Below are positions 6,001 through 54,770 of a stretch of 64,000 nucleotides of DNA, in pieces; positions within the stretch are counted from its first letter, which is position 1, and each line of letters begins with the position of its first letter. Source of the stretch: Sulfurimonas sp. (GTDB taxonomy: Bacteria > Campylobacterota > Campylobacteria > Campylobacterales > Sulfurimonadaceae); assembly GCF_029027405.1 (NCBI RefSeq), contig NZ_CP093396.1:1736001-1800000 (forward strand), in the 5' to 3' direction. Position numbers and translations under genes: made by a program. Under the pieces are notes generated by a model. It was not told the DNA's origin and did not search any database. It saw only the letters and a program-made list of their open reading frames with translations.

Positions 6001-6035
6001 TAAATAGTGCTAAATAAGAGTACAATACGACAGAG

Positions 6036-7433: not shown

Positions 7434-7434
7434 A

Positions 7435-11217: not shown

Positions 11218-11229
11218 AAAGGATTTAAG

Positions 11230-11820: not shown

Positions 11821-11834
11821 AAAGGAAGATATAA

Positions 11835-12164
11835 ATGGCAATATTTGAAGTAGATGACAATAACTTTCAAGATACATTAGATGCTGAGTTTAAAAAGAAC
11901 AACATAGTTATTTTAAAGTTTGGTTCTGATTTTTGTGATGCATGTATGGCACTAGATACTGAACTAGAGCAAGTTGATGAAGAAGATTTAAATATTTCAA
12001 TTATTGCAGTAAATACAGATGACTATCCAGAAATTGCAGAAGCTTATGATGTTTATCAATTGCCAACAATGATAATTTTTAAAAACATAAATTACACCAT
12101 TTATGATAGCCAAGGTGTTGTGCTATCTGATGATATTTTACAAATTGTAAAGTCTTCTTTATAG
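11835..12164 (+). CDS. Thioredoxin-like protein
   Basis: The 109-residue protein has one thioredoxin fold. The redox motif is CDAC in KFGSDFCDACMALD (about residues 31-44) and the cis-proline is in YQLPTMIIF. The WCGPC sequence of canonical thioredoxin is replaced, so this is a divergent member, probably cytosolic because no signal peptide is seen. It follows the aldolase-fold gene by 14 bases and its last 6 bases overlap the end of the convergent bioA. Confidence 0.88.
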   Translation: MAIFEVDDNNFQDTLDAEFKKNNIVILKFGSDFCDACMALDTELEQVDEEDLNISIIAVNTDDYPEIAEAYDVYQLPTMIIFKNINYTIYDSQGVVLSDDILQIVKSSL

Positions 12165-13457
12165 CGCTTCAATAGCCTCAAACGCCACATTCATCATTTT
12201 ATCAATCTCTTTGTTAGTTATAACATAGGGAGGCATAAAATATATAACATGACCAAGCGGTCTTAATAAAACCTCATTATTTAAAGCGTATTGATACACT
12301 TTTAAGCCTATACGCTCTGATGCTTCATAACCTTTTAACTCAACGACACAAATCATGCCTGTTTGTCTTATGGAAGCAACATTTTCTAGCTCTAAAAATT
12401 TTTCTAGTTTATCACCCATATATTTGGAAATTTTTTTATTGTTTTGTATAACATTATCATTTTCAAATATATCAAGGGTAGCATTGGCAGCAGCACAAGC
12501 AAGAGCATTTCCCGTATAAGAGTGTGAGTGTAGAAATGCTTTATGTTCATTGTAGTCACAATAAAATTTTGCATATATTTCATCTGTTGTTAGCACAACA
12601 GAAAGAGGTAAATAACCTCCAGTTAAACCTTTTGATAGAACCAAAAAGTCAGGAGTTATATTCGCTTTTTCACAGGCGAATAACTCTCCTGTTCTACCAA
12701 AGCCAACCATTACTTCATCTGCTATCAAATGAACATTATATTTATCACAGATTTGACGAACTAAAACTAAAAACTCAGCATGATACATGTGCATATAACC
12801 TGCCCCTTGTACTAAAGGTTCCAATATAATTGCACTTATTTCATCTGATTTTTCTTTACATAACTTTTCAAATTTATCAGCAGCCATTTTTGCAGCTTCT
12901 ATACTCATATTAGATGGAACTGGAGTTTGTAAAGTTTTTAAAAGGAGTGGCTCATAAGTTTGTTTGTACAACTCTACATCACCTACACTAAGAGCACCAA
13001 TAGTTTCACCATGATAAGAGTTTGTTAGCGAAACAAAAACATTTTTTCCACTAATACCATCGTTAAGATGTGCATGGTAACTCATTTTTAGAGCAACTTC
13101 TACTGCACTTGAGCCGTTATCAGAATAAAAACATTTTTCTAACCCCTTTGGTGTTAGTTTTACTAAACGCTCTGATAATTCTACTACACCCTCATGCGTG
13201 AATCCTGCTAAAATTACATGTTCTAAAGTGTCTAACTGTTTTTTTATTCTTTCATTTATATATTTATTTGTGTGTCCAAATATATTTACCCACCAACTAC
13301 TAACTGCATCAATTAACTTATTTCCTTCATAATCTTCAAGCCAAACACCGTGAGCTTTTTTTATAGGAATTAAAGGTAATGTTTCATGATCTTTCATCTG
13401 CGTACATGGATGCCAAAGGACACTTAAGTCCCTATTTTTAAGTTCTTCATTTTTCAT
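12159..13457 (-). CDS. bioA: Adenosylmethionine-8-amino-7-oxononanoate aminotransferase
   Basis: This 432-residue class III PLP aminotransferase has the BioA hallmark LWHPCTQMKDHE at its N-terminus. The PLP lysine is in LSKGLTGGYLPLSVVL (near residue 277), and IADEVMVGFGRTG supplies the Asp that binds the pyridine nitrogen. It converts KAPA to DAPA in biotin synthesis using S-adenosylmethionine. It stands alone here, convergent with the thioredoxin-like gene and divergent from the PpiD-like gene. Confidence 0.96.
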   Translation of the reverse strand: MKNEELKNRDLSVLWHPCTQMKDHETLPLIPIKKAHGVWLEDYEGNKLIDAVSSWWVNIFGHTNKYINERIKKQLDTLEHVILAGFTHEGVVELSERLVKLTPKGLEKCFYSDNGSSAVEVALKMSYHAHLNDGISGKNVFVSLTNSYHGETIGALSVGDVELYKQTYEPLLLKTLQTPVPSNMSIEAAKMAADKFEKLCKEKSDEISAIILEPLVQGAGYMHMYHAEFLVLVRQICDKYNVHLIADEVMVGFGRTGELFACEKANITPDFLVLSKGLTGGYLPLSVVLTTDEIYAKFYCDYNEHKAFLHSHSYTGNALACAAANATLDIFENDNVIQNNKKISKYMGDKLEKFLELENVASIRQTGMICVVELKGYEASERIGLKVYQYALNNEVLLRPLGHVIYFMPPYVITNKEIDKMMNVAFEAIEAL

Positions 13458-39706: not shown

Positions 39707-41521
39707 GAGACTGTGAAACAATCAAGCCTCAAAGTTCATAATAATTCGATTTTTAGAAATTATATCGTTTAAATTGTACCATAAAAATATTTGATATTAT
39801 TTTAGCCATATAGAGCCTAAAACTAGCGATATAAAAAGCTATTTCTTCTCTTATATCACTTAAGTCTCCATCTTTGACAGCTATCATCAGTTTTCTAAAC
39901 AGAGCTATCCCTATCAGGTTTAGTAATCGTTTGAAATTATAGGTAAACATGATGAGTGCGTTTTCACCAGCTACTTTCTTTTTGCTTCTCACTAAGAAGT
40001 GATCCCAGCCTAAGCTTCTTTTGATTGTTCCAAATGGGTGTTCAACTATTGAACTTACATAAATCTATTTAGTAGATTTATTGCACTGACGCTTGTTGAG
40101 CTAGTCTTTTTTTGATGATAGCTTTTGATTCATCTGTTTGCATATTCGCATTATAGTTGTCAAGTAGCTCTTGATGTTCCCATCTTTGAGTCTGTTTATT
40201 CTTAGTCTTTTCACCTAAACATTTATCTTTGATTGGGCAGGCATTACAGTCGGTTTGAGAGCTTCTATACAAGTACATAGTTCTAGCATATGATTGATTC
40301 AATGATGATGTTCTTGATATTAGTTTATTGTTAGGGCATACATAAGCGTCTTTGTTCTTATCGTAGATAAACATATCTTTAGTGAACTTACCTTTGTTTT
40401 TTAGTTCTTGACCTGTTCTTACTAATGGTACTACTGTATTTATATTATCGTCAATACATTTTTTAATCTCAACTGCTGAAGAGTAGCCTTTATCTGCTGT
40501 TATTATCAAGTTTGGATTATTTATAACTTTTCTAGTTTGTAGAGCCATTTTATGGAGTTCTTGTTTATCGCTACCTGATGATGTTACATCTGTAGCTACT
40601 ATAAACTTGTACTTATCGTCTACACATATCTGAGAGTTGTAAGCCATAAGATTATGGGATGGTTTAGTCATTACGCTTGCATCTGGGTCAGTACGATTAT
40701 ATTGAGTTTTATTAAGACTTTTAAGAAGCGCTAAGTCAGCTTTAGACTTGAGTTTTTTTTAAGAGTTTATCTAAATTTTTAGGTAGATTTTTAGAGAGTT
40801 TATTTGTGACTGTCTCTTCATCGCTATATTCTAAAGTAGTTAGATACTCTTCTATAGACGATTCTACTTGTTTGATGGACTCATCTACGGTTCTTTTCAT
40901 TATAAGAGTATTTTTAGAAGCATTAGCTCTTAGAAATGCACCATCAAGTCCAACTATCTCTCCACCGATAAGTCCTATTCCTTTACACAAAAGTATAAAT
41001 TCCTTAAACACTTGTTTAAGTGCTTTTGGATTGTCCTTTCTAAAATCCGCTATTGTTTTATAAGTTGGCTTTAGTCCTGCTGTCAACCACATCAGTTCTA
41101 TATTTCTGCTATTTTCCTTTTCAAGATTGCGAGAACTTCGTATCTTATTGAGATAGCCGTAGATATATATTTTTAATAGTAACTTTGGTGCATAAGATTT
41201 TTGACCAGAGAGACTCTTAGACGTATCGCTAAAGCCTAGTCTTTTTAAATCTAATAATGAGACATAATCATCAATAGCTCTTACAGGGTTATTCTCATCT
41301 ACATACTCATCAAGACTTGGAGGAAATAATAGTTGTTGATTACGGTTTAAACCCTCTTTGTATTTCTCACTCATAGACACCTCTTTAAATCCCTATATTA
41401 CGAACTATTATTAGTTATATTATACAATTATAAGGGTTTAAATATGGTTAATGTTAAGGTATTTGTGTTAGAATTTTTGTAATTTATGAGACTGTTTGAG
41501 GTTTAGTTATTTCACAGTCTC
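39707..41521 (-). mobile_element. IS1182-family element with broken transposase
   Basis: The 1815-bp element is bounded by GAGACTGTGAAA at 39707 and its complement at 41510-41521; subterminal AAxCCTCAAA is also shared. Both ends adjoin attC sequence: CCAACGA on the left, and ATAGTAGCC of the toxin-antitoxin attC on the right. No target duplication is seen between these two flanks, which fits a rearrangement after insertion. The transposase frame is broken at least twice. Confidence 0.8.
39753..41380 (-). pseudogene. IS1182-family transposase, frameshifted
   Basis: Three consecutive pieces make one transposase. 41380-40742 is the N-terminal part (LLFPPSLDEYVDENNPVRAIDDYV, RDNP and VGLDGAFLRANASKN). 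After a shift at a run of eight A (40753-40760), 40740-40078 is the core (TDPDASVMTKPSHNLMAYNSQ, ITADKGYSSAVEI). After a further break, 40057-39753 is the end (IVEHPFGTIKRSLGWDHFL). The second break coincides with about 25 extra bases containing the palindrome ATAAATCTA-TTTAG-TAGATTTAT (40059-40081). Slippage at the A run could in principle restore the first frame; the second break looks like damage. Confidence 0.82.
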
Positions 41522-41577
41522 ATAGTAGCCAATAAGTAGCCTAGCGGCGACTTATTGGCTATATTCAGCCGTTATCA
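41522..41577 (+). other. attC half (R' side) of the toxin-antitoxin cassette
   Basis: ATAGTAGCCAATAAG and its complementary arm CTTATTGGCTAT frame CCTAGCGG, followed by TTCAGCC and the R' core GTTATCA (41571-41577). The same stem sequence is in the attC sites at 50068 and 53650. Here it is oriented on the plus strand, opposite to the rest of the array. Its R'' half lies at 42257-42271 on the other side of the genes. Confidence 0.8.
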
Positions 41578-42400: not shown

Positions 42401-42808
42401 TTATTTTTTCTTATAGTTTAATAAATAATCATCAACCATTTTTAACTTCAAGCTTTTGCTTAATCCTCTGTGGATTTTAATGAGTATTTTCAATGGAGAA
42501 AAAGTTCCACCATCGAGAGTATTTGTTGTGTTTGGAATCTTGAAATTTTTATATTTATTTCTTGTAAAAAGATATGAAAGATTAGCTCTTAAACTTCTAT
42601 ATGCAGCTCTAACTTTTTGATGAGTGTAATATGATTTACCAGTATCATTATTGATACTTTTTTCTTCTATAAAATTTTTATATGTTTCATACCATTCATC
42701 AAGCTTTTTAGTAAATTTTTTTTCATTAGTTTGAGTGAGTCGATACATGATTTTCTTCAAATCTTTTCCAGCTTGTAGTCTTGGTCTTTTAGTTATATAT
42801 CTTTATAA
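42401..42808 (-). pseudogene. C-terminal fragment of a DDE transposase
   Basis: The open part runs from the IS3-family boundary to 42401. It reads KRPRLQAGKDLKKIMYRLTQ, then YRSLRANLSYLFTRN, IPNTTNTLDGGTFSPLKILIKIHRGLS, the end of a transposase with an NTTNxLxG motif. The N-terminal two thirds are missing, replaced by the IS3-family element at 42809. A start codon at 42760 exists but the homology begins upstream. TGGAGTGGTAACC near 42335 may be the end of this lost element. Confidence 0.7.
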
Positions 42809-44150
42809 TGCCCCTAAAAATCAAGACAACTTTCCTAAAGATTTAATTTCATAAGCAACTGTTACCTTACCCTACATTTTTTAGATATTCAAGATAAACA
42901 TTCATCGGTTTTCTATAATCTAAACTTGAGTGAAATCTCTTAAAGTTGTATTTATAGATATAAGCTTTAACTCCTTCTTTTAAATTTCTAATAGTTTGAT
43001 AATCATTTATGTAAATATTACCATGTTTAAGGGTTCTAAAAAATCTCTCAATTACTATATTGTGAATACTTCTAGCTTTCCCATTCATTGATATTTGAAT
43101 ATTATATCTTTTAAGTATCTGAGTATGCTCATTGCTTGTATATTGACTTCCTTGATCACTATTAAATATCTTAGGCTTAGGATACTTTGCAAGTGCCTTT
43201 TCTAGCACATCGGTTGCAAGTGTTGCATCCATAGAATTAGTACCACAAGGGCATGATAATATTTTATAGGAGAGTATAGCTTTAGAATGCCAGTCTATAA
43301 CTGCTGCCAGATACATAAAACCTCCGTTAATACGAATATAGGTAATGTCACCACTCCATACTTCGTTTGGAGTAGGCACATAGACAGTATTTTTCTTACC
43401 AACTCTAGTCCAATACTTCTTGAGGAGGTACTCATATATTTTATGTTCTTTATTTTTAATACTTGTTAGTTTCTTTTTAGTTGGGTATATTGCTTGTATG
43501 CCAAGTATTGCCATATATTTCAAGACTCTATTTCTGCCAATGGCATAGCCATCTTCTTTGAGTTGCTCGTAGATAAACCTATAACCATACTCTGAGTTCT
43601 CTGTAGCTATCTCATCAATTTTATGAAGTAGTTTGATGTTTTTTTGACTCATTGGTACTGGTTGATAGTAATAGTGGCTTCTACTAATACCAAATATCTC
43701 ACATTGCTCTGAAATTGATAATTTTTTATGCTTGGACTCGATCAAAGCTTTTTTATTACATAAGTCCAAGCTCTTTAGCTTTTTTTCAACGAAACCTGCT
43801 CTTACAGTTGCTTTTCCTAGTGCCTTAGCTAAGCCATCATTCTCAGTTTTTAACTCTTCTATTTCATCTCTATAAGCTTTCGTCGCTCCACCCAAGTCAA
43901 ATGCTAAAGATGCATTTTCTAAAAATTGAGTCTTCCATTTTCCTAATGATTGAGAAGTGATTTTATACTTAGTTGCTAACTGACTTATTGTCATATCTTC
44001 TTTTAACATTTCTAAGACTATTTTAGTCTTCTGTTTTGCCGTATAAGTTTGCCCTTGTTTTCTACTCATAATTTATCTCCATAATTCTTACTTATTTTAG
44101 CTTTTTTGAAAATAAATCCTACTGAATTGGTGTCTTAGATTTTAGGGGCA
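42809..44150 (-). mobile_element. IS3-family insertion sequence (first)
   Basis: The ends read TGCCCCTAAAA...TTTTAGGGGCA with inner matches up to AAGACA. The symmetry also extends outward over TATAA. No target duplication could be fixed: the left flank is transposase debris and the right flank is a truncated cassette gene, so flanking DNA was probably lost by recombination or deletion. Confidence 0.82.
42867..44069 (-). CDS. IS3-family transposase (single frame)
   Basis: The 400-residue protein fuses the HTH part (KIVLEMLKEDMTISQLATKYKI) with the rve catalytic part without a frameshift. The DDE residues are in VWSGDITYIRI, KIFNSDQGSQYTS and IVIERFFRTLK. FHSSLDYRKPMNVYLEYLKN is the family C-terminus. 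The gene looks intact. Confidence 0.93.
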   Translation of the reverse strand: MSRKQGQTYTAKQKTKIVLEMLKEDMTISQLATKYKITSQSLGKWKTQFLENASLAFDLGGATKAYRDEIEELKTENDGLAKALGKATVRAGFVEKKLKSLDLCNKKALIESKHKKLSISEQCEIFGISRSHYYYQPVPMSQKNIKLLHKIDEIATENSEYGYRFIYEQLKEDGYAIGRNRVLKYMAILGIQAIYPTKKKLTSIKNKEHKIYEYLLKKYWTRVGKKNTVYVPTPNEVWSGDITYIRINGGFMYLAAVIDWHSKAILSYKILSCPCGTNSMDATLATDVLEKALAKYPKPKIFNSDQGSQYTSNEHTQILKRYNIQISMNGKARSIHNIVIERFFRTLKHGNIYINDYQTIRNLKEGVKAYIYKYNFKRFHSSLDYRKPMNVYLEYLKNVG

Positions 44151-45192
44151 TTATAGTTATGAAGTTTTGTGTCATTGAATACAAAAATATATCCCATGTT
44201 TTATTGTATGTTTCAGTAATAGTTTTTTCATAACTCCAATTATTGTTATAGTTAAAAAATTGGTTTACTTTTCTATCATCGTCAAAGTAGTCATATGAAA
44301 ACTCAAGTATATGTTTAAAATTTCTACCATTTAAAACCATTTGATGAAAAACATTTTTTACTTTTTCTTCTGTTGATATGTTCTTTCTTTTCTCTATCAG
44401 TATTTTTAATATATACCCAAATATCATGTAGTATTCTGATAAAATCGAATATATATCAAGCTTATTATTTGATTGAAAAGTATAATAAGGGGAGTTGCAT
44501 AATTGTATTTTAGTATACTGATGTTGAAGTTTATCAATAAAATGATTGAAGTAGAAGACCCTATCCTCAATAAGCTCATCAATATTCTTAAAACCATGTT
44601 GATTTAATAAATTTAAGTTTTCACTTAAATTATTTCTATTTTGAAAATTTTCAATATCTAGATTATTTATTATTTCAAATATTCTAATTTTCTCTAATGT
44701 TCTTTGTGGATTCTTTTTTTTATGATGTGGGTTTATATGATCTTCCATCATATATGGTAAATAATTCAAATCTATATTGTGCTTTAGTTTAAAGTCAATA
44801 AAATTATTAGAAATTTTTTTATTATAAAATCTCTCAAACATATTCATTGAGTTACTGTCAACAAATATAGAACTATCATGATTTACTTTTTCTTTAAATT
44901 CATTTGTAAAATATAAAATGTTTTTATAATTTGAAAAATGGTGTTCAACAGTTATTTCACTTTCATCAGAATCATAGAATTTTTTGCTATTAATTTCTGA
45001 TAATATATTTGTATGAAAATCTGACCCAGTTTCATCATCCGTGCCAACAATTAGTGAATAGTTCTTAATAAAGTCATACTTTGATTTATAGTTATTATAA
45101 ATACGATTATAATCATAATTTTTTGTAGATTGAACGAACTCTTGAATCATATCCCCTAAAATAAGCTGCTCGTTATAATTTTCACCAAACAT
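44151..45192 (-). pseudogene. Cassette gene of unknown function, 3' end lost to IS3
   Basis: About 347 codons remain before the IS3-family boundary; the last ten residues of the open frame are IS sequence. The protein is rich in Asn, Tyr, Phe and Lys, and has a HINPHHKKKNPQRTLEKIR segment near residue 170 and long helical stretches after it. No membrane helix, signal or known motif is recognised. The start has an AAAGGTAC site and lies 23 bases after the R' core of the repeat cassette at 45215, so this was a cassette gene. Its attC is missing. Confidence 0.6.
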
Positions 45193-45214: not shown

Positions 45215-45373
45215 AGCTAACGGGGGCGCGGGTGAGTAACTGCCGTTGGTAAAACTTTAGTTTTTCCAATGGTTGCTTGCTCCTCCCGCTTGTTATCTGG
45301 CGCTGTGCGACAGATGACCAGTGGGTGTTCAACCCGCGCCCCCGTTATCCGGTCACGCAGTGAGCGGATAACG
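45215..45373 (-). repeat. Gene-less cassette, repeat copy 1
   Basis: Cassette proper 45221-45371 (151 bp), inside a 156-base stretch (45218-45373) identical to three other copies. Its attC runs from R'' GGATAAC near 45350 to R' GTTAGCT near 45215 (minus strand), with 16-bp arms ACGGGGGCGCGGGT-like and a nested TTGG/CCAA hairpin. It has no credible ORF. It follows the attC of the IS-split gene. Confidence 0.88.
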
Positions 45374-45434
45374 TTTTAGGAGAGCAATAGTTTTCCCGCT
45401 AGGGTAAACTATTGGCTCCTGCGTTTTGTTAGCT
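45366..45434 (-). other. attC site of the IS-split cassette
   Basis: R' GTTATCC (plus 45366-45372) and R'' AGCTAAC (plus 45428-45434) bracket a 69-base palindrome with arms CAATAGTTT / AAACTATTG and a GCTAGGG loop region. R'' is complementary to the R' GTTAGCT at 47442 that opens this cassette. The TAG stop of the gene touches R''. Confidence 0.85.
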
Positions 45435-45867
45435 ATAGCACTAACATACGACTATTTTTTGTTCTTAATGATTTGCGACTACTACAATACGAAATGCTTA
45501 GAAAACCAAATTTATATCCTATATTTCCAGTATATCTATCACCCAAAGGTAAAGAACCAACCTTTTTGATAACTAAACGATTTACTTTAATATATTTTCC
45601 ATTTTCAAAATCAATAGTTGAGTCATTACTGACAGTTACTAAAAGTATATTACAAAAAACAGCTACTCCATCTGAAGCACTCCATGTTTGAATAATATGA
45701 ACTCCACTAAATGAACAACCTATATATTGATAAGAAAGTATCTCATCTTCTTCTTTCGCTGTGACAACTGGATGAGTTTTGCTTGATTTTTTTGATGTTA
45801 TATCAGAAAAATATCTGTTACTTGGAATGTCCCCTATAAACTAGACAATTACTAATCCAGTAAAAAC

Positions 45868-46680
45868 CTAATTTTCTGAAGACCCCAAATTATACCTTTT
45901 TTCAAACTCATTTGGTGAAATATAATCCAAATAACTATGTCTTCTTTTCGAGTTGTAGAACATTTCTATATATTCAAAGATTTTAGATGCTGCAACTTCT
46001 CTAGTTAAAAATACCTGCTTTCTAACAAGCTCTTTTTTTAATGTTTTGAAGAAGCTTTCCGCAACTGCATTATCATAACAGTTTCCTCTTCTACTCATGC
46101 TAAGAGTAATATTATGCTTCTTGGCAAACTTTTTATAATCATAAGAGCTATATTGACTTCCCTGATCGGAGTGAAGAATAACCTTATCATCCTTATGCAG
46201 TCTTGTAACTGCCATTTTAAGTGCATCAATAATTAGTGGTGTTGTTTGTCTATGTCCTGTCGCCCAGCCAATAATTTTTCTATTAAATAAATCTATAACA
46301 GTTGCCAAGAATATCCATCCTTCTTTTGTTCTAATGTAAGTTATATCACTAACCCAAGTATCATTAGGTTTATTTACTATAAAACACTGCTGTAAATGAT
46401 TAGGATGTGCCTTGTGAACGGGACCAGCTTTAGAGTATGGCTTACGTTTATAAGTGCCTACACCATAGAGCTTGGCCTCGCTCATCAGTCTAGCTACTCT
46501 CTTTTTATTTACATGAACTCCAAGTTCTTTTAAATCTTTATGAATATTTCTATGACCATATACCCCATTGGATTCTTTATAGGCTTCTTTTATCTGAATA
46601 AGTAATTCTTGATTTTCCAACTCTCTATTAGAAATCGGTTGATTTAGCCACTGGTAATATCCACTTCGGTGCACTTGCAT
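45868..46680 (-). CDS. IS3-family transposase OrfB
   Basis: The 270-residue catalytic part has VSDITYIRTKEGW, VILHSDQGSQYSS and DNAVAESFFKTLKKELV, which give the DDE triad, and the C-terminal RRHSYLDYISPNEFE. The frame is open upstream of the listed ATG, and expression is expected as a fusion with OrfA by -1 frameshifting at AAAAAAG (46773-46779). Confidence 0.93.
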   Translation of the reverse strand: MQVHRSGYYQWLNQPISNRELENQELLIQIKEAYKESNGVYGHRNIHKDLKELGVHVNKKRVARLMSEAKLYGVGTYKRKPYSKAGPVHKAHPNHLQQCFIVNKPNDTWVSDITYIRTKEGWIFLATVIDLFNRKIIGWATGHRQTTPLIIDALKMAVTRLHKDDKVILHSDQGSQYSSYDYKKFAKKHNITLSMSRRGNCYDNAVAESFFKTLKKELVRKQVFLTREVAASKIFEYIEMFYNSKRRHSYLDYISPNEFEKRYNLGSSEN

Positions 46681-46739
46681 AACTTTACAAAGTCTATGAA
46701 TGGCATAGACTTCGCTATAAGCTTTAATAAAAGTATATT

Positions 46740-47024
46740 TTAGTTTGTGTGGCTTGCAAAGTACACCGCGGCCTTTTTTAGGATGTCCCTCTCTTCTGTA
46801 ACTCTCTTTAGCTCTTTTTGGAGTTTTTTTATCTCCGCTTGGGACTCATCCATAATCTTATATTTTTTTACTGCTGCTGGAGACTCTAATCTTTTTATCC
46901 AACCACTTAACGATGTTGGATGTATACCTAATCTATTTGCCGTATCTGTTATGCTGTAACCATTTTTAGTTACTTGTTTTACTGCCTCTATTCTAAACTC
47001 TTCACTGTATCTTTTTCTTGCCAT
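46740..47024 (-). CDS. IS3-family transposase OrfA
   Basis: The 94-residue protein has an HTH (SEEFRIEAVKQVTKNGYSITDTANRLGIHPTSLSGWIK) and a leucine-zipper-like tail (EIKKLQKELKRVTEERDILKKA). The A6G slippery sequence lies in the RDILKKA codons, the usual place for IS3 programmed frameshifting. Confidence 0.93.
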   Translation of the reverse strand: MARKRYSEEFRIEAVKQVTKNGYSITDTANRLGIHPTSLSGWIKRLESPAAVKKYKIMDESQAEIKKLQKELKRVTEERDILKKAAVYFASHTN

Positions 47025-47441
47025 TTTTCAACCCTATAATTTTCATAATGTTATATCATTATACTATCTAAATTATTGGATTAATTAGTGTCTAGTTTAT
47101 AGGGGACATTCCAACTATTATTTGATTTAGAAATATTGATTGATACAACTTGATCACCTGTATCGCTTGTCCAACCGATTAGGTCTTCAAGAATTTTTGG
47201 GTTAATATATTCTTCATTTGTAAATGAATACTTATAATCACTAAAATCTCTAATTAAAGTAGAATTTGGGGTTAATGACATAAAGTTAAATCCAATGATT
47301 CCATGAACTTCATCTCTAAAAAATGCAGCTGTGCTTAGCAGTAGAACAACTACCGGCTCTGGACTTGGTTCTATATATAACCAAATTATACAAGCTAAAA
47401 AAGCTAGAATACTAATTATTTTATACAATTTTTTCCTTGAT

Positions 47442-47600
47442 AGCTAACGGGGGCGCGGGTGAGTAACTGCCGTTGGTAAAACTTTAGTTTTTCCAATGGT
47501 TGCTTGCTCCTCCCGCTTGTTATCTGGCGCTGTGCGACAGATGACCAGTGGGTGTTCAACCCGCGCCCCCGTTATCCGGTCACGCAGTGAGCGGATAACG
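47442..47600 (-). repeat. Gene-less cassette, repeat copy 2
   Basis: Cassette proper 47448-47598 (151 bp), identical to copies 1, 3 and 4 through 47445-47600. R' GTTAGCT at plus 47442-47448 opens the IS-split gene cassette. It follows the attC of the PD-(D/E)XK gene. Confidence 0.88.
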
Positions 47601-47662
47601 TTTATCGTGAGCAATAGTTTTCCCGCTAGGGTAAACTATTGGTCTCCTCGTTTTTGTTAGAT
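47593..47662 (-). other. attC site of the PD-(D/E)XK cassette
   Basis: R' GTTATCC (plus 47593-47599) and R'' ATCTAAC (plus 47656-47662) bracket arms CAATAGTTT / AAACTATTG almost identical to those of the attC at 45366. R'' differs by one base from the complement of the opening R' GTTAAAT. The TAA stop of the gene is part of R''. Confidence 0.85.
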
Positions 47663-48889
47663 GTTCGCATGTTGATTGCTTCTAAAGTCCATTACATCTG
47701 AAATTGTTTCTATAAAACTTTTTAAATTATGATGTGCTTCATCATCTCTAACCAAGGGACAACCATTTTCCCGTGACAATGTAAATCCAATTTTACACGG
47801 TTCTGTATGTGACTCAATACGTAATACATCTTTCTTTTCTTCAATTATATTTTCTTGAATTTTTGTTCTAAACCAATACTGTTCAACTTCATCTTCTGAT
47901 AATTCTATTTTATCCTGTGATACTCTATTACAATCATTGATACAAACATCTGATAATTCTATTTGTAATTGATTGATAATCGGCTCTAGAATCATTGTTT
48001 GTATTTCTCTTGGATACTCTCTATCTGTAACATTCCATATATTTGTTAATATATTAATTGTTCCATTTTTACCTACTTTTTTACAGCATATTAGGATTAA
48101 ATATGAAAATGATTTTATAATTGGTTCTTGTTTTGTACCAGCTTCATCTGCTCTAAAAATTAAGTATAAAAAATTTATAAGTCCATTTGATAATGTTTCT
48201 ATTAATAACTCATTATCAACAAACATACACCATGACCTCTGGTTGATATTTCCATTGTTTATTTCTGAGGTAGTCAATGCAAGTAAGGATTGTGGTGATA
48301 TTTTAAGTTCACTACGATTTTGCCATAATTTTATTAGTGTTGGCTTATCAGATAAAGTTGAATAGTTCCAAAACTTAGTTCTAATAACTTCTAGTTGCCC
48401 TTGTAAGCTAAGAGCTTTTGAATATAGTCTTATTATTGATAATGGATTTTTAGAACATAAATTTTCTAATTCAGTACGTTCCCAAAGTTTAACTTTTATT
48501 TTAGGATTATTTGATTGCCATTCTTTAACCCAATCTCTTGTTGGATTAGAAAAGTTTGAATTTGTTGCTATCACTATGACATCCACATCTTGTTTATTGC
48601 TTATATTAAATAATGCACTGTGCACTTCAGCTGGTTCTACTGTAGATTTTCTTCCTTTAGCTTCTATCCACCATTTTTGTTTTGTTAATTCACCATCAGG
48701 TGAAGATACATAAAATGATAATTCTAAATCTCTTCCTCCATCTGAAGCACCATTACCTTGGCCTCCTATACGCCATTCAATATCTTTAGCTCCCATTTCA
48801 TCAAAAAGCCAGTACAATAATTCTTCTAATTCTTTACCTTTTATTATATCCCAAGGAATTTCTGTTGGTATAATTAATTCTGAATCCAA
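47657..48889 (-). CDS. PD-(D/E)XK nuclease-like protein (cassette gene)
   Basis: The 410-residue protein has an N-terminal restriction-endonuclease-like (Mrr-type) domain: DGGRDLELSFYV near residue 50 supplies the Asp, and KQKWWIEAKGRKS near residue 72 supplies the E-x-K. VDVIVIATNSNFSNPTRDWVKEW near 103 continues the fold. The C-terminal 240 residues are helical with no recognised motif. A nucleic-acid-cleaving defence function is plausible but unproven. It is the only gene of its cassette; the stop lies in attC R''. Confidence 0.75.
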   Translation of the reverse strand: MDSELIIPTEIPWDIIKGKELEELLYWLFDEMGAKDIEWRIGGQGNGASDGGRDLELSFYVSSPDGELTKQKWWIEAKGRKSTVEPAEVHSALFNISNKQDVDVIVIATNSNFSNPTRDWVKEWQSNNPKIKVKLWERTELENLCSKNPLSIIRLYSKALSLQGQLEVIRTKFWNYSTLSDKPTLIKLWQNRSELKISPQSLLALTTSEINNGNINQRSWCMFVDNELLIETLSNGLINFLYLIFRADEAGTKQEPIIKSFSYLILICCKKVGKNGTINILTNIWNVTDREYPREIQTMILEPIINQLQIELSDVCINDCNRVSQDKIELSEDEVEQYWFRTKIQENIIEEKKDVLRIESHTEPCKIGFTLSRENGCPLVRDDEAHHNLKSFIETISDVMDFRSNQHANI

Positions 48890-48916
48890 TACTTCTCCTA
48901 TAAATTTTAATAAACT

Positions 48917-49075
48917 ATTTAACGGGGGCGCGGGTGAGTAACTGCCGTTGGTAAAACTTTAGTTTTTCCAATGGTTGCTTGCTCCTCCCGCTTGTTATCT
49001 GGCGCTGTGCGACAGATGACCAGTGGGTGTTCAACCCGCGCCCCCGTTATCCGGTCACGCAGTGAGCGGATAACG
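48917..49075 (-). repeat. Gene-less cassette, repeat copy 3
   Basis: Cassette proper 48923-49073 (151 bp), identical to the other copies over 48920-49075. Its R' here is GTTAAAT (plus 48917-48923), which opens the PD-(D/E)XK cassette. It directly follows the other gene-less cassette (49074-49256), so two gene-less cassettes stand in tandem. Confidence 0.88.
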
Positions 49076-49256
49076 GCGAAGCTGAGCTCCATTAATGAGT
49101 ATATCAGAAAATTCGCTTGCGATTTTCTGGGATACACTTTGATGTGTGACTCCTGCCATTTGTTGTATGTAGCGTAGCGAAATACGACAAATGGTTGGGG
49201 GCACGTTTAGGGCTCAGCTTCGCCGTTGTACGTTTCCGCTCCGCGGGAACGTACAA
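49068..49256 (-). repeat. Second type of gene-less cassette (183 bp)
   Basis: The cassette proper is 49074-49256. Its attC has R' GTTATCC (plus 49068-49074) and R'' GTACAAC (plus 49225-49231), 16-bp perfect arms AACGGCGAAGCTGAGC with their complement at 49212-49227, and nested hairpins (GAAAAT-TCGC..., CCATTTGT...ACAAATGG). The opening R' GTTGTAC at 49251 and R'' form the palindrome GTTGTACGTT...AACGTACAAC. Short ORFs crossing it do not look like genes. Confidence 0.82.
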
Positions 49257-49387
49257 CGGTCGAGTACAAAAATATGTTACCTGTTTTTGTAGTCTTTTAA
49301 GTTCTACAATGGTATCTAAATCTTTGAAGTTTTCCAATCTAAAAATTGGCAGAGGTAACATATTTTTCTTGCTACGATTTGTTATAT
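49251..49387 (-). other. attC site of the lipoprotein cassette
   Basis: R' GTTGTAC (plus 49251-49257) and R'' ATATAAC (plus 49381-49387) bracket a 137-base palindrome with arms AAAAATATGTTACCT and complement near 49352-49366. R'' is the exact complement of GTTATAT at 49917, the opening core of this cassette. Confidence 0.85.
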
Positions 49388-49389
49388 CT

Positions 49390-49842
49390 TTAATTTTTTA
49401 TGAATTTATTTAAGGTTGAAAGAGCCGCTCTATCTCCATTTAATGCAAATCCAGTTTCTATTCCATTTTTATCAAATATTGTTAAGAGTTTAGAATTTGC
49501 CCATAAATCTCTTTTAACAATTCTTTCTTCAATTTTTGAAATTTCATTTTTACTTAATTTAAACATGATATTGTATTCAAATCCCCTCACATCCCATTGA
49601 GCAAAATAAACACCTTGGTCTGTTATTGTAAAAATACCCCATGCTTTTAAATCATCATTTTGATACATTGTTGTAAATTCTTTAAACAATATCTCAGATG
49701 AACCATCTTTTACTGTTTCAATAAAAATTGGCTTAAATTGTTTCGTGCTTAATAAACCTTGTTGTGTTTGCATAGGTCCTAATGCACTACACCCTGATAG
49801 TAATGTGATTAAAACTAAAAAACTAAAATAAAATTTCTTCAT
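49390..49842 (-). CDS. Lipoprotein of unknown function (cassette gene)
   Basis: The start at 49842 gives a lipoprotein signal MKKFYFSFLVLITLLSGC (Cys 18) and 150 residues; a start at 49872 adds ten residues. The mature part has beta-rich segments such as LKAWGIFTITDQGVYFAQWDVRG and ends RAALSTLNKFIKN. No family is recognised. It lies alone between two cassette boundaries. Confidence 0.72.
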   Translation of the reverse strand: MKKFYFSFLVLITLLSGCSALGPMQTQQGLLSTKQFKPIFIETVKDGSSEILFKEFTTMYQNDDLKAWGIFTITDQGVYFAQWDVRGFEYNIMFKLSKNEISKIEERIVKRDLWANSKLLTIFDKNGIETGFALNGDRAALSTLNKFIKN

Positions 49843-49916
49843 TAAGAAATCTCCAAAAATAAATTTACCCATTTTTAATAGGCATATTCAAACTTCCAAA
49901 TAATGTGGTTTCTTGG

Positions 49917-50075
49917 ATATAACGGGGGCGCGGGTGAGTAACTGCCGTTGGTAAAACTTTAGTTTTTCCAATGGTTGCTTGCTCCTCCCGCTTGTTATCT
50001 GGCGCTGTGCGACAGATGACCAGTGGGTGTTCAACCCGCGCCCCCGTTATCCGGTCACGCAGTGAGCGGATAACG
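49917..50075 (-). repeat. Gene-less cassette, repeat copy 4
   Basis: Cassette proper 49923-50073 (151 bp), identical to the other copies over 49920-50075. R' GTTATAT (plus 49917-49923) opens the lipoprotein cassette. It follows the attC of the DUF262 gene. Confidence 0.88.
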
Positions 50076-50135
50076 GTCGAAGATAGCCGATAAATTGCCG
50101 CTAGGTAATTTATTGGATACTCTGTTTTGTTATGC
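50068..50135 (-). other. attC site of the DUF262 cassette
   Basis: R' GTTATCC (plus 50068-50074) and R'' GCATAAC (plus 50129-50135) bracket the conserved stem CCAATAAATTACC / GGCAATTTATCGG with GCTAGG at the tip. R'' is the exact complement of the opening R' GTTATGC at 52069. Confidence 0.87.
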
Positions 50136-50142
50136 TTTTAAC

Positions 50143-52038
50143 TTAAAGTAGCTTAGAAAAATCTTCTTCTTGAAAAGTAATATTCCATCTATCTGACATA
50201 AATTGTAGTAATTTTTCTCCTCTTGAATATATATCGTCTATACTCCAAGATATATTTTGACTTATCTCAATTGTATTGTAACTTGCAGTTGAAAAAACTT
50301 CCACTTTTACATCAAAACATTTATTTCCAATACTTGAGTTGTATGTTTTGGAGAGTAAAACTAGATTACCAAGAGAATGCAATATTCTTTTTTTACTTTT
50401 ATTGTCTAAAGTATTAATTTCGTTCCAACATTCCCTAACAGTATTTTGAGGATAAATATGCTCTACGGAATCTTTATTTATTTCTTCCCATTGAAGTTTC
50501 CTCTCACCTTGTGCATTAGATTGTAAAAATAATTCATACTCATAAAGTAGATATTGTATACCATTCCACGAGTACCAACCTTTTTTATTTTCATCATCAA
50601 AGTTATCATTGATAATATCTATAAATTTTTTTGATTTAAATAGCTTATTTTTATGATTATCATAAATTTTATCTTCAAGTTTTGTTCTGATTCTATAAAT
50701 ATACTTCTTTTTATGATATTCATAAGCCAATTCAAAAAAATCTTTTATAGTTGTATTACTACCTTTCATCGTCCTAAATTTTATAAACATATAATTTTCA
50801 ATTAGTCTTAAAATTCTTACAATCTCATCGTCATCATTGATGTTTTCTTTATCAATCATAATCGCCATTACTAAAGGTTTAAAAGTGTCAAATCCTAATC
50901 TATTTATTTTAGAAAGCCATACTTTTATTTCTTCGCTATATTTTGTGTTAATAGGATTAAGCATATTGTAATATGCAACAATAGCATTTTGAATATTAAA
51001 CACATAATCTTTAATATCAGTATAATCAATAAAAAAATCTTTAAGTCGTGATTCATCCATCACTTCTTGAATTTGAGAAAAATTTTCTCTATCTCTAAAA
51101 GTTACTTTTTGGATTGTAAAATGTTCTTTTAATAAAAAATCTCTTTCAGGATTAGCTACAGCTCTGTCATATTTTCCAAAATACATTCTCCAATGATCTT
51201 TTAAAAAAACATCATCTTCAATTTTTGATGATGAGTCTTTTCCAATATACTCATAAATTGTTTTCCATGCTTCATTAATATTAAAACGTAATTGGGAAAC
51301 TTCTTCTTTATCATTATTTAAGATAGTTGTTAGATACATTAGTCTATTTTTCAAAAGTTCCAATGTTGTCAGTTGTTTACCCCTATTATTCATAGTTTCA
51401 AAAATAATTGAAACATCTAATTCATCATCTTTATCAATTTCATAAAAATTAAACTTGAGTTGCTTCGTTATTTTTCTCACCAAAGTTTCAAGAGGATTTT
51501 TTTCTAGTTTATCAATTTTTTTATGAAAAAACTTTTTTGCATTATGAAGATTTTTAGTATACAAAGTATCAGTTTGTGTAGCAAAAGATTCTGTACTCTC
51601 TAATTCTAAAATTTTTGTTCTAAAAAATATATCACTAGGGTTGTCTTTTTCGTAGCCAAATACAACGCGAACAGTTTGTGCATCTTTTCCTACTCTTTTA
51701 AATAAATATTTATTGGTAAGTTCAGATTTTAATGCTCCTGTATTTTCATCACCTATCCAATCAGAATTGTTAAATTTATCAAGAATAATTTTTAATAAGA
51801 TCGTTATTGTTGTCAATCTTTGTTGACCATCTACTACATGATAATAATCATTTTCTTTTTTATGTTCAACTGTCAGCATTCCTGTATAGTGAACTCTCTT
51901 GTCATCTAAATTTTGTAAATCTCTCCAAAAATCCTCTAGTTGCTCATTCTCCCAAGAATAACCTCTTTGATAGTCGGGTATCTTGAAAATTTTATCATTA
52001 AATATCTCAGATAATGTTTCTAGTCCACTATTTGCCAA
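50143..52038 (-). CDS. DUF262/DUF1524 (GmrSD-like) protein (cassette gene)
   Basis: I place the start at the TTG at 52038, which has AAGGA 8 bases upstream and gives 631 residues; the frame is open to 52155, but the extra part is attC sequence and overlaps the Doc gene. The N-terminal DUF262 domain has IFKIPDYQRGYSWENEQLEDFW and VVDGQQRLTTITILL, the latter being the nucleotide-binding DGQQR motif. The C-terminal DUF1524 has the HNH-like VEHIYPQN...LGNLVLLS pattern. Homologues include the GmrSD type IV restriction enzyme of modified phage DNA, so phage defence is likely. Confidence 0.88.
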   Translation of the reverse strand: MANSGLETLSEIFNDKIFKIPDYQRGYSWENEQLEDFWRDLQNLDDKRVHYTGMLTVEHKKENDYYHVVDGQQRLTTITILLKIILDKFNNSDWIGDENTGALKSELTNKYLFKRVGKDAQTVRVVFGYEKDNPSDIFFRTKILELESTESFATQTDTLYTKNLHNAKKFFHKKIDKLEKNPLETLVRKITKQLKFNFYEIDKDDELDVSIIFETMNNRGKQLTTLELLKNRLMYLTTILNNDKEEVSQLRFNINEAWKTIYEYIGKDSSSKIEDDVFLKDHWRMYFGKYDRAVANPERDFLLKEHFTIQKVTFRDRENFSQIQEVMDESRLKDFFIDYTDIKDYVFNIQNAIVAYYNMLNPINTKYSEEIKVWLSKINRLGFDTFKPLVMAIMIDKENINDDDEIVRILRLIENYMFIKFRTMKGSNTTIKDFFELAYEYHKKKYIYRIRTKLEDKIYDNHKNKLFKSKKFIDIINDNFDDENKKGWYSWNGIQYLLYEYELFLQSNAQGERKLQWEEINKDSVEHIYPQNTVRECWNEINTLDNKSKKRILHSLGNLVLLSKTYNSSIGNKCFDVKVEVFSTASYNTIEISQNISWSIDDIYSRGEKLLQFMSDRWNITFQEEDFSKLL

Positions 52039-52068
52039 TTGATTTTCCTTATAGTAATTTTTTCTGTA

Positions 52069-52135
52069 GCATAACGACTGTCGTGAGCGATAATTTTCCT
52101 TTAGGTAAATTATTCGTTCCTCGTTTTTGTTAGGT
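52069..52135 (-). other. attC site of the Doc cassette
   Basis: R' GTTATGC (plus 52069-52075) and R'' ACCTAAC (plus 52129-52135) bracket arms GCGATAATTT / AAATTATTCG. R'' complements the opening R' GTTAGGT at 53650. The TAA stop of doc is part of R''. Confidence 0.87.
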
Positions 52136-52573
52136 TTCTGCTGAGACAGCTTCAAATATCTCTATTTTTAATGATTCATCAAATTCATTGTCATCTACTA
52201 TGAATTTAATTATTTTTAAAAGTAAATCATCATTTATTTTGCCTTCTGCTAACCAAACTACTATATTTTCCATTTCTAAAATAAATCTTTTAGTGCAATA
52301 GTCATAACCGTTTAATTCTAAAAAATATGCACCTAAAACTAAGCTTGACCTTTTATTTCCATCAGAAAATGGATGAAATTTATTTACTGCATAAATAATA
52401 TGTTTAAGTTTTTCTTCAAATGTTGGATAATACATATCATTTTGAACATGTTCCAATGCACTATCAAGTAAGCCTATTTCTCTATTACCACTAAGTCCAC
52501 CACTATTTTCAATAATCCAATCATGTACATTTATTGCATGATTTGTATCAAAATAAAAGATTTCTAATTCCAT
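52130..52573 (-). CDS. Doc/Fic-family toxin (cassette gene)
   Basis: The 147-residue protein has the Fic core HPFSDGNKRSSLVLGAYFLELNGY near residue 67, the catalytic HPFxDGNKR, and the GGLSGNREIGLLDSALEHVQ region of death-on-curing proteins. Doc phosphorylates EF-Tu; other Fic proteins AMPylate targets. Its start overlaps the upstream gene by one base (TAATG), so the two genes form an operon within one cassette. Confidence 0.9.
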   Translation of the reverse strand: MELEIFYFDTNHAINVHDWIIENSGGLSGNREIGLLDSALEHVQNDMYYPTFEEKLKHIIYAVNKFHPFSDGNKRSSLVLGAYFLELNGYDYCTKRFILEMENIVVWLAEGKINDDLLLKIIKFIVDDNEFDESLKIEIFEAVSAET

Positions 52574-53586
52574 TATCTATCTTTTAAGCGTTTTAATACA
52601 TCTAATGTTTCAGGATCAGACAGTCTTTCTTCAAGAGATTTACTTGTTTCGCCTAAAAATTTATCAAAATCACTTTGTGGAACAGATTGAATATATCCTT
52701 CCAATTTATTATGTAAGGCATCCCTGAAACATAAATCTCGACTTGCCATTTTCACTCTAGCATCATCTATGCTTGGTTTCATATAAGGATTTGAAGCAGC
52801 ATTTTTAATTATGCTATCTAATTCACTTTGAGATAATTTTCTACCTAATTCTTCGGATTTAGTTTTCATTTCTTGTGCAAGTCCATGTTCAAAGCTTGCA
52901 ATCGCTTTTAAAACTTCTGAGTACATAGTATCTCGAACTTTTTCTTTTTCAGCGAGATTAAGAATTTTTTTATATTCACTTGCATTTTCTAGAAAAATCA
53001 TTTCATAAATCTTATTTGTGTAAATTCCATATTTATATCTATCTGACATGTCAAGATAGTGCTTTAAAGCATCTGTAAATTCTTTTCTATAACTATATTC
53101 TTGATAAGAAGCTGGTAGATAACCTTCATCCCTTTGATTAATATATTTGGTTTGCCCACCAGCTTTTTGTGCAACAGCATCTATTGCTATATCTAGAATT
53201 TTACTTCTAATAATTTTTGCTTTTTCACTTTCTGTAATTAACATAGAAATATTTAAAACAGCTCTAAAAGAGAAAACTCCAAGAATTGTTGTTTTGGTAG
53301 CGACATTCATGTCGTTACCAAAATTTTCTTTCAATTTTTTTAGTTCCTTCCCTTTAATAACCTTATATCCATTAGATGACAACTCGTCATTATTTTGTTC
53401 AATATATCTATCAATAGTTCTTTCATCAACTGATAATAAACTTGACACTTGTGTTTTAGTAAAAATTCTTTCATCTTTCCAAGTTGTCCCACCTAATGCT
53501 AAATTAAGTTCAACTTTTTCTAAAGCATATTGGTTATTTAAAATATTTTGTCTACTTATTGTTGATTCTGTTAAATCTTTTTTCAT
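52573..53586 (-). CDS. DNA-binding partner of Doc (cassette gene)
   Basis: The 337-residue protein has an HTH-like region, FTKTQVSSLLSVDERTIDRYIEQN (about residues 42-65), followed by KAKIIRSKILDIAIDAVAQ and a long helical C-terminal part. Genes of this type are often found upstream of Fic/Doc toxins and resemble RhuM-like proteins. It may act as antitoxin or transcriptional regulator; no canonical Phd antitoxin is present. ATG with GGGAAAAG upstream. Confidence 0.68.
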   Translation of the reverse strand: MKKDLTESTISRQNILNNQYALEKVELNLALGGTTWKDERIFTKTQVSSLLSVDERTIDRYIEQNNDELSSNGYKVIKGKELKKLKENFGNDMNVATKTTILGVFSFRAVLNISMLITESEKAKIIRSKILDIAIDAVAQKAGGQTKYINQRDEGYLPASYQEYSYRKEFTDALKHYLDMSDRYKYGIYTNKIYEMIFLENASEYKKILNLAEKEKVRDTMYSEVLKAIASFEHGLAQEMKTKSEELGRKLSQSELDSIIKNAASNPYMKPSIDDARVKMASRDLCFRDALHNKLEGYIQSVPQSDFDKFLGETSKSLEERLSDPETLDVLKRLKDR

Positions 53587-53649
53587 CTTTTCCCAATTTA
53601 TACATATTTATGTTAATTATAACATTTTATAAGAGTAACTAATTTTGGT

Positions 53650-53717
53650 ACCTAACGACTGAAGATAGCCAATAAATTTCCGCTAGGTAATTTATTGGCT
53701 ACTCTGTTTTGTTAGGT
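53650..53717 (-). other. attC site of the DUF4062 cassette
   Basis: This is the cleanest attC here: R' GTTAGGT and R'' ACCTAAC match the consensus cores at all positions, over 68 bases. The stem TAGCCAATAAATT with its complement frames CCTAGCGG. The DUF4062 stop codon lies 18 bases from the R'' edge, inside the site. Confidence 0.93.
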
Positions 53718-54700
53718 TTTTCATCAGTTTTTTTAATTAACTCTAAAAACAACATGGCATCACCTTTCTCAATTTCATAATCATATAAATATTTTTGTTC
53801 ATTAATAGAGCCCATCATACTGTCAATATCGTATGGATTTTTAACATAATCTGGATTTTTTCTTTTTAATGTATTAGTTATATTAATAAATGTTGCTTTG
53901 ATTTTATCAATACTATTTTCACTAAAAATTAATCTTGATAATATTTTAATCTCTTGATTATCTTTTTCATTAAAATATATATCTGATTTTTCTTCTGGAA
54001 TAATTAGATATTTTATTTTATTTTGATCTAAATCTTCTACAAATTCAATTTTTGTGATAATTGTCTCTCCAAACTTAAATCCCAATTCTCGACAAGCTTC
54101 CTTAGACAAAGGTACAGCTTTCTCTGATAATTTTATATTTACAATAGTCTCGTAGTTTTTATACTTGTTTGGAAATAATAAAAATTTTTCTAACAGATTT
54201 AAGTTGTCATTTTCATTTATTTTAAGTTTTTCAATTTCCTTTTTTGTTAAAATATCATCTAACCTATTTTTTAGTCTAATTGATAAATCTTGAGGTGTTT
54301 GAAAAAAATCTACAGTATGTTTTTCTTTTAGTAGTTGTTTAAAATTATCTAGTTTTTTATGCTGTTCAAAATCTATAGCATTTACTTTGATTTGGGCTTC
54401 GTCATCAATCAAATAAATTAAAATTTCTTTTTTTTGCTCTAAAGCTTTTTCATATTCTAATTGAGTAAATGATTTGTTCGACTCTGCTTCAAGACTGCCA
54501 AATCTTGTAGCAATTATACCAATATAAATATCTGCTCTTTCTACTTCGTTTAAACAGGTTTCAAGTGGAGTTTCTTTTCTTGCTCCAAACTTTTCCATAC
54601 CAAGAACATTAACACTATAGCTTTCCAATAGTTTCCATACTGCTTCTCTATAGTCTTTTAAATCCATATAGGTTGATGAAATAAATACATTTTTTTTCAT
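53699..54700 (-). CDS. DUF4062-domain protein (cassette gene)
   Basis: The 333-residue protein starts MKKNVFISSTYMDLKDYREAV and has ARKETPLETCLNEVERADIYIGIIATRFGS, the DUF4062 domain, a TIR-related nucleotide-binding fold found in putative immune proteins. The C-terminal two thirds (about residues 140-333) are not recognised. A role in defence signalling is possible. It is the first cassette after the candidate array promoter. Confidence 0.82.
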   Translation of the reverse strand: MKKNVFISSTYMDLKDYREAVWKLLESYSVNVLGMEKFGARKETPLETCLNEVERADIYIGIIATRFGSLEAESNKSFTQLEYEKALEQKKEILIYLIDDEAQIKVNAIDFEQHKKLDNFKQLLKEKHTVDFFQTPQDLSIRLKNRLDDILTKKEIEKLKINENDNLNLLEKFLLFPNKYKNYETIVNIKLSEKAVPLSKEACRELGFKFGETIITKIEFVEDLDQNKIKYLIIPEEKSDIYFNEKDNQEIKILSRLIFSENSIDKIKATFINITNTLKRKNPDYVKNPYDIDSMMGSINEQKYLYDYEIEKGDAMLFLELIKKTDEKPNKTE

Positions 54701-54742: not shown

Positions 54743-54770
54743 ACCTAACTATTTATTCATTCCCATTATA
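54743..54770 (-). promoter_or_regulatory. Array start: R' core and candidate cassette promoter
   Basis: Plus ACCTAAC at 54743-54749 is GTTAGGT on the minus strand and complements the R'' of the first cassette. No attC stem lies beyond it, so it may be the attachment-site edge. A TATAAT -10 box lies at 54765-54770 on the minus strand, about 65 bases before the DUF4062 start, with no good -35. It is placed as an array promoter would be. Confidence 0.5.

Follow-up and report, generated by a model that had tools for sequence, protein, structure and literature searches.

The integron cassette array of a Sulfurimonas sp. raises the question of what kind of element a cassette might be that stands among gene cassettes, is bounded by regular crossover points and contains no gene of its own. 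The cassette in question, termed X in the following, lies in a window of 64,000 nucleotides (positions 1,736,001-1,800,000 of a single 2.83-Mb contig), to which all coordinates refer unless another locus is named, and occupies positions 49074-49256 on the minus strand between two G^TT crossovers. Direct reading and a scripted cut yielded a length of 183 bp and the ends TTGTACGTTCCC...GCTTCGCCG, in agreement to the base with the coordinates given by a first-pass annotation made from the letters alone. X begins with a 5′ hairpin, GTTGTACG...CGTACAAC (49225-49257, minus strand, 33 nt including the preceding G), which is the short palindrome that the annotation had described as formed by the opening core and R″. 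The outer 7 bp of this hairpin are the R′ and R″ boxes of the circular cassette, its inner stem being extra. An attC-like palindrome follows, whose arms AACGGCGAAGCTGAGC / GCTCAGCTTCGCCGTT match perfectly over 16 bp, as had likewise been noted (minus strand; right arm in the sense direction at 49072-49087, left arm at 49212-49227). The palindrome encloses two internal hairpins on the minus strand, both recognized from folds and alignments, namely CCATTTGT...ACAAATGG (49156-49194), which holds GTC...AAC as the 5′ hairpin does, and CAGAAAAT...ATTTTCTG (49105-49129). The nested hairpins of the first reading are real: the bottom (+) strand from 49072 to 49220 has a folding energy of -34.6 kcal/mol, where shuffles average -14.6 (z -6.95) and none of 200 does as well, the minus strand one of -22.3 kcal/mol (z -3.38), and the short hairpin alone reaches z -7.3 and -5.5 on the two strands. 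Both strands of X thus fold far beyond chance, the best fold being that of the plus strand (the bottom strand with respect to the array).

X stands in tandem with a second gene-less cassette of 151 bp, termed Y (48923-49073, minus strand), which had been listed as repeat copy 3 and, as claimed, adjoins X at one common G^TT joint. X and Y have a plan in common, namely a 29-36-nt hairpin reaching from the crossover GTT to AAC and then a palindrome AAC-arm...arm-GTT with two further hairpins inside, and both exceed the host in G+C (0.49 for X and 0.56 for Y vs about 0.31). The sameness of design had been proposed before and stands, whereas the accompanying view that the two units are unrelated and independent examples is not established, given the shared plan, a similar internal GTC...AAC hairpin and a mixed unit in a relative. 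In the latter (locus L141, 1473-1654), a unit of the X type bears the 5′ hairpin that the Y-type units of that genome have, which would suit a hairpin that can be exchanged as a module.

The array to which both units belong runs on the minus strand downwards from an attI-like core, GAATAAATAG^TT, at 54,758-54,747, with a TATAAT box upstream at 54,770-54,765 (feature 54747-54770, minus strand) and without an integrase gene; in relatives, the same core is located between intI and the first cassette. From this core onwards, the array contains a DUF4062 gene with its attC (53650-53717, 78.2 bits), PDC-M59A/Fic genes with an attC (52069-52135, 75.4 bits), a GmrSD-like gene with an attC (50068-50135, 74.6 bits), a copy of Y (49923-50073), a lipoprotein gene with an attC directly before X (49251-49387, 42.0 bits, E 7e-7), X itself, the tandem Y, an Mrr-like gene with an attC (47593-47662, 71.5 bits), a further Y (47448-47598), a short ORF, an insertion that we take from its two-ORF form to be of the IS3 type, an attC (45366-45434, 76.3 bits), a last Y (45221-45371) and a further gene, with all listed attCs and Y copies on the minus strand. 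Bit scores refer to R1, a covariance model built from the gene attCs of the array, of which all listed sites except the one of the lipoprotein gene are members. A transposase pair lies inside the array, the stretches concerned being 45819-47117 of the window and 11185-12539 of locus L017. A stretch of 1355 bp that is 100% identical between the window and L017 is the other transposase region at about 42804-44158. An attC-like site was also seen on the opposite strand (41509-41577, plus strand, 40.6 bits with R1), on the far side of the transposase at 42867-44069. Anti-phage defence genes abound in the gene cassettes (GmrSD-like, Mrr-type, Fic/PDC-M59, SIR2 + HerA, NsnA/PD-T4-2-like), with defence-rich stretches at 47657-54700 of the window, 5337-8269 of locus L018 and 18417-19496 of L017.

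No IntI was found in the 64-kb window, and the whole host genome yielded no match to TIGR02249 over the cut-off; the best match lacks positions 182-257 of the IntI model, which we take to be the IntI-specific part. Locus L018 has kept an attI core with just 16 residues of IntI, and locus L020 contains IntI fragments. The host array is a fossil, its integrase having been lost. With six gene attCs on the array strand and without an IntI over the cut-off, it has the make-up that defines a CALIN. Like the attC clusters without integrase described under this name (PMC8618304), it consists of several attC sites and no IntI; unlike them, it still has a relic attI core marking the former place of the integrase.

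Evidence for movement comes from the copies in the same genome. X has one further copy, identical in 189 of 189 bases (100%), and the two have different neighbors: in the window X lies between a gene attC and Y, and the second array copy (locus L018, 8777-8965) follows a Y and precedes a gene. Both joints of X are located exactly at G^TT, the integron crossover. X is therefore a mobile gene-less integron cassette that has moved whole and with exact joints into different cassette neighborhoods. Y is present in 12 copies, 4 of them in the window and 8 in loci L017 and L018, as defined by copy comparison and scripted coordinates. Their mean pairwise identity amounts to 0.993 inside the unit vs 0.33 in the 40-nt downstream and 0.49 in the 40-nt upstream flanks, the latter value being as high as it is because different attC sites resemble each other. 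Since the edges of Y and X are sharp and the neighbors unrelated, homologous recombination alone is insufficient as a source of these copies. Other arrangements were observed as well. In two chimeras, the 5′ half of X or just its first 40 nt is joined to a gene (L017, 10771-10898; L105, near attI), so that the hairpin becomes the leader of that gene. An X-like unit beside the IntI fragments of L020 (9256-9441) has its inner part inverted between the arms, which differ by compensatory changes.

A combined Y+X query found matches in 73 of the 228 genomes searched in the family of the host, which belong to 8 of 18 genera, and in 33 of 397 genomes (13 of 68 genera) in a sample of the phylum, all of them in one order. 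The exact X-core pattern was found in 25 stretches of named genomes, 24 of which are metagenome-assembled and 21 titled Sulfurimonas; the other titles are Helicobacteraceae, Campylobacterales, Patescibacteria and Flavobacteriaceae, with the last two possibly reflecting binning errors. A distant-mode search in 72,556 plasmid and 50,697 phage records yielded no match. IntI is present over the curated cut-off of TIGR02249 in 68 of the 228 family genomes, and the IntI of one relative aligns with the Vibrio IntI of PDB 2a3v over 310 residues (E 1.7e-82).

When the attC parts were used as query, without the hairpin being required, 117 places were found in the fetched loci, some of them counted twice in overlapping loci. 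The left end is included in 111 of these, and 97 of the 111 are preceded by a GTT...AAC hairpin. Wherever the left context of a hairpin-bearing place was readable (96/96), it was an attC R′ box (61) or an attI-like core (35). End-to-end matches to the query numbered 90, of which 6 lacked a recognized hairpin (contig end, deletion or changed base), and the others reduce to 55 different units, 15 of X and 40 of Y. The 117 places and 55 distinct, complete, hairpin-bearing units bear out the earlier suggestion that gene-less cassettes form a class in this lineage. All 40 Y entered the Y alignment (A3), and the X alignment (A2) comprises 19 rows, i.e., the 15 X and the units of L145, L141, L117 and L123.

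Relatives of X sit at the attI of integrons that do possess IntI. Among 52 IntI-linked loci (L055-L106), 40 whose attI core was readable were scored, two of them (L105, L058) by eye; 12 were left out because of fewer than 45 nt to the left (L056, L063, L082), no recognized core (L081, L084, L101) or a contig end before the core (L060, L061, L073, L076, L079, L088). The first cassette was a gene-less unit in 15 of these 40 loci, compared to 18 of about 80 cassettes at later positions, a total which is a lower bound (86 gene attCs plus 33 gene-less units minus 39 first cassettes); the excess among first cassettes does not reach significance (p = 0.089). The 86 gene attCs were found with R1 at E up to 0.01, after 6 of 92 rows had been removed by hand (5 duplicates on the opposite strand and 1 match inside a gene-less unit). 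Beside IntI, gene-less units thus account for 33 of the roughly 119 cassettes read, or about a quarter. The 35 of 96 units located at an attI-like core were not taken as a preference, since some loci had been fetched for their IntI and some places were counted twice. Two units, in L083 and L074, were counted as gene-less by their hairpin, their sequence being neither X nor typical Y. Gene-less units with hairpins of neither type were seen in L092 (2646-2825), L083 (1244-1421) and L074 (1208-1236), the last one being cut by the contig end, with an arm start that resembles Y.

In the alignments, the 5′ hairpin and the palindrome both retain their pairing through compensatory changes. The first 7 bp of the 5′ hairpin need no special reason, since R′ and R″ of a circular cassette must pair and no gene stands between them. 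Beyond the R boxes, at hairpin positions 8-10, 67 of 75 cells are paired among 25 distinct hairpins, compared to a shuffled mean of 35.8 and none of 2000 shuffles as high, in a control that does not correct for the relatedness of the hairpins. Changes on both sides of a pair were found by RNAalifold in 20 of 47 pairs of Y and 21 of 51 pairs of X, and compensatory changes occur in the arms as well as in the 5′ hairpin, which is unbroken on the bottom strand only. Folded with DNA parameters, every distinct unit (40/40 Y and 19/19 X) is more stable as bottom strand, the margin averaging about 11 kcal/mol, whereas shuffled sequences show a difference of 1.5 (sd 2.1-2.2). Since the bottom strand folds better in all 59 units, the structure is read as one of single-stranded DNA and not of RNA. 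IntI uses the bottom strand, according to the part of the work on attC recombination considered here (PMC2727003), and we infer that selection acts on the unit in its entirety as single-stranded bottom-strand DNA, which is what IntI recombines. The internal boxes were inspected as well. In Y, the three bases before the internal AAC (GAT, GAC or GGC) recur in the R″ box of all 40 distinct units, two of which have GATGAC, while X lacks such a link (9/17). As an idea, the units might have originated from a tandem dimer with the internal GTC...AAC as relic junction, which the box match in Y favors and the absence of covariation in X does not.

Taken as a whole, the sequence evidence makes it probable that X is a gene-less integron cassette composed of a 5′ hairpin and an attC-like palindrome and that it spreads as a passenger moved by IntI in the form of single-stranded bottom-strand DNA. 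The DNA between the two G^TT crossovers consists of the short hairpin and the long palindrome and nothing else. Such a unit is short, folds on itself and has its two crossovers near each other; it may therefore be excised and re-inserted by copy-and-paste more readily than gene cassettes, and it would multiply as a passenger, i.e., as a "selfish" minimal cassette, a process that would have halted in the host genome with the integrase gone. Cassette excision is reported to be able to proceed by copy-and-paste (PMC8024014). In experiments with one pair of sites, synthetic cassettes were excised more when short, with frequencies falling from 1.17e-3 (60 bp) to 5.25e-5 (+3,000 bp), and with low-pfold sites on the lagging template it was the shortest ones that were excised most (PMC5371416).

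The sites of X and Y depart from those of ordinary cassettes. The consensus of the attC core is RYYYAAC for R″ and GTTRRRY for R′; the cores of X, GTACAAC and GTTGTAC, are complementary and differ from it in one inner base on each side. The first 16 bp of the stem in X and 15 bp in Y are perfect, with no unpaired central spacer, and X lacks extrahelical bases over the 13 pairs that follow AAC, its first asymmetric base coming later and on the other arm. With the stem fully paired over 15-16 bp, both the spacer and an extrahelical base at the expected place are missing. The first-pass annotation had proposed to fold the single strands and to compare their extrahelical bases with those of known attC bottom strands; the bottom strand does fold better, but the usual extrahelical bases are absent. 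The gene attCs of the same array are ordinary, with a TAAC core, an unpaired A-rich spacer and an interrupted L box, and R1 barely detects X (16.6 bits, E 0.86). The VCR site of Vibrio cholerae, like X and Y, is a long attC with a branched terminal structure and is recombined on the bottom strand; unlike the fully paired, gene-less X and Y, it is described as having an unpaired central spacer and extrahelical bases and as belonging to gene cassettes, and removal of these features lowered its insertion 8.5e4-fold in the experiments considered (PMC2727003). By the known rules for attC, X and Y should accordingly be predicted to recombine poorly; nonetheless, they are the most copied cassettes here. 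Either the IntI of this family tolerates such sites, or the 5′ hairpin compensates for them, or an old burst was rare but favored. A more far-reaching version of the preferred reading, which we put forward only tentatively and consider rather doubtful in its full extent, is that X and Y might form a family of selfish minimal integron cassettes made of attC alone, counterparts of MITEs, which IntI would copy and paste in spite of their non-canonical, fully paired site and which may amount to about a quarter of the cassettes of Sulfurimonas-type integrons; the 5′ hairpin would then replace the missing spacer and extrahelical signals, or would allow extrusion of the whole cassette as one folded single strand, at the base of which both crossovers would lie.

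Gene-less cassettes might also act on the genes next to them, as mobile promoters or mRNA leaders driving the following gene cassette, and Y and X of the host are mostly located directly before a gene in the same direction. X was also considered as an open reading frame and rejected. A conserved ORF, named by the first-pass annotation as something that would speak against its interpretation, was not found, since any single frame stays open from end to end in at most 2 of 19 X and 18 of 40 Y, and the unit length is not kept modulo 3. A consensus scan for sigma-70-like promoters between 48880 and 49420 found 0, compared to 0.8 in shuffles, a terminator scan of the same stretch likewise found none, fewer than in shuffles, and inspection by eye revealed no TATAAT-like box kept across either alignment. 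In addition, what is conserved are paired bases, polarized to the bottom strand. Of 29 gene-less cassettes from four Vibrio integrons that were tested, most showed sense-strand promoter activity (PMC11014356), and promoter activity was likewise reported for two ORF-less cassettes of Treponema (PMC6557892). The negative outcome of the promoter scan is weak evidence, because promoters of gene-less cassettes are reported not to be predictable in silico (PMC11014356). On balance, a promoter or leader function as the explanation of X appears unlikely.

It is also improbable that the units are inert leftovers, cassettes with a lost gene that spread by ordinary duplication of the array and whose palindromes are kept by template-switch correction and not by selection. 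The loss of the integrase in this genome, with relic pieces of attI and IntI remaining, and the existence of X-gene chimeras in L017 and L105 would fit such a history. However, size and internal plan of the units are constant across genera, precise G^TT joints with unrelated neighbors need IntI, and the strand polarity of the folds also argues against this explanation.

The strong conserved secondary structure with its compensatory changes could, in principle, belong to a small RNA or a structured leader encoded by the unit. Searches against Rfam, which presumably holds sRNA-Xcc1 among its models, yielded no match to X, Y or the loci of four relatives at E up to 1 or 0.5, so that a known RNA family, the other kind of counter-evidence named beforehand, is not seen either. 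Moreover, in every one of the distinct units (59/59) the top (sense) strand is the less stable one. An RNA acting in the sense direction should retain G-U and avoid C.A pairs, and most hairpins show the reverse: a G.T pair in the bottom fold only was found in 13 of 22 distinct X/Y hairpins and in the top fold only in 1 of 22 (these events not being independent). Less strict tallies of wobbles lean less to one side: position by position, the 25 hairpins gave 8 for the top vs 17 for the bottom strand, and the whole alignments gave 13 top vs 40 bottom for Y and nearly equal numbers, 13 top vs 11 bottom, for X. One integron cassette of Xanthomonas is reported to encode sRNA-Xcc1 and is gene-less like X and Y, which differ from it in having no Rfam match and a structure polarized to the DNA bottom strand (PMC6557892, as far as considered). 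An RNA function of the unit is thus very unlikely. That X is a transposon-like repeat (MITE, REP/BIME) lying in cassette arrays by chance is scarcely credible, since, although it is palindromic, short, multi-copy and higher in G+C than the host, all 96 readable left joints are integron crossovers, no duplicated target was seen at the joints of X and Y copies, and copies outside the two arrays (L020-L022) are diverged or partial.

The preferred reading, that of a passenger cassette moved by IntI, is to be seen against cassettes already published. The gene-less cassettes of Vibrio and Treponema, as described in the parts of the reports considered (PMC11014356, PMC6557892), likewise lack a gene and stand among gene cassettes in an array, but they retain a body with measured promoter activity, whereas the body of X and Y is a hairpin of about 30 nt; also unlike them, X and Y recur many times as the same unit and form a sequence family across genera. 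As gene-less cassettes were published before, what is new about the class is its form and its occurrence in this lineage, not the concept. No paper on the X/Y family was found in the excerpts of open-licence PMC articles on integrons in Sulfurimonas/Campylobacterota and on gene-less or ORF-less cassettes. What looks new is that cassettes consisting of attC only form a sequence family, in which a second hairpin covaries, the sites are fully paired, copies are numerous and the spread within one order is wide.

Draft contigs often end in or near X/Y units beside intI, so that surveys may overlook such arrays, and the units themselves escape an attC model derived from gene cassettes. In integron theory, cassettes are carriers of genes, and attC can hardly do without its unpaired spacer and extrahelical bases; the most repeated cassettes of this lineage are gene-less and have a fully paired site. 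If IntI does not move X and Y efficiently, it is a puzzle how a dozen near-identical copies reached exact crossovers. If it does, the rules of IntI recognition will have to be revised, and integrons would themselves be hosts to parasites.
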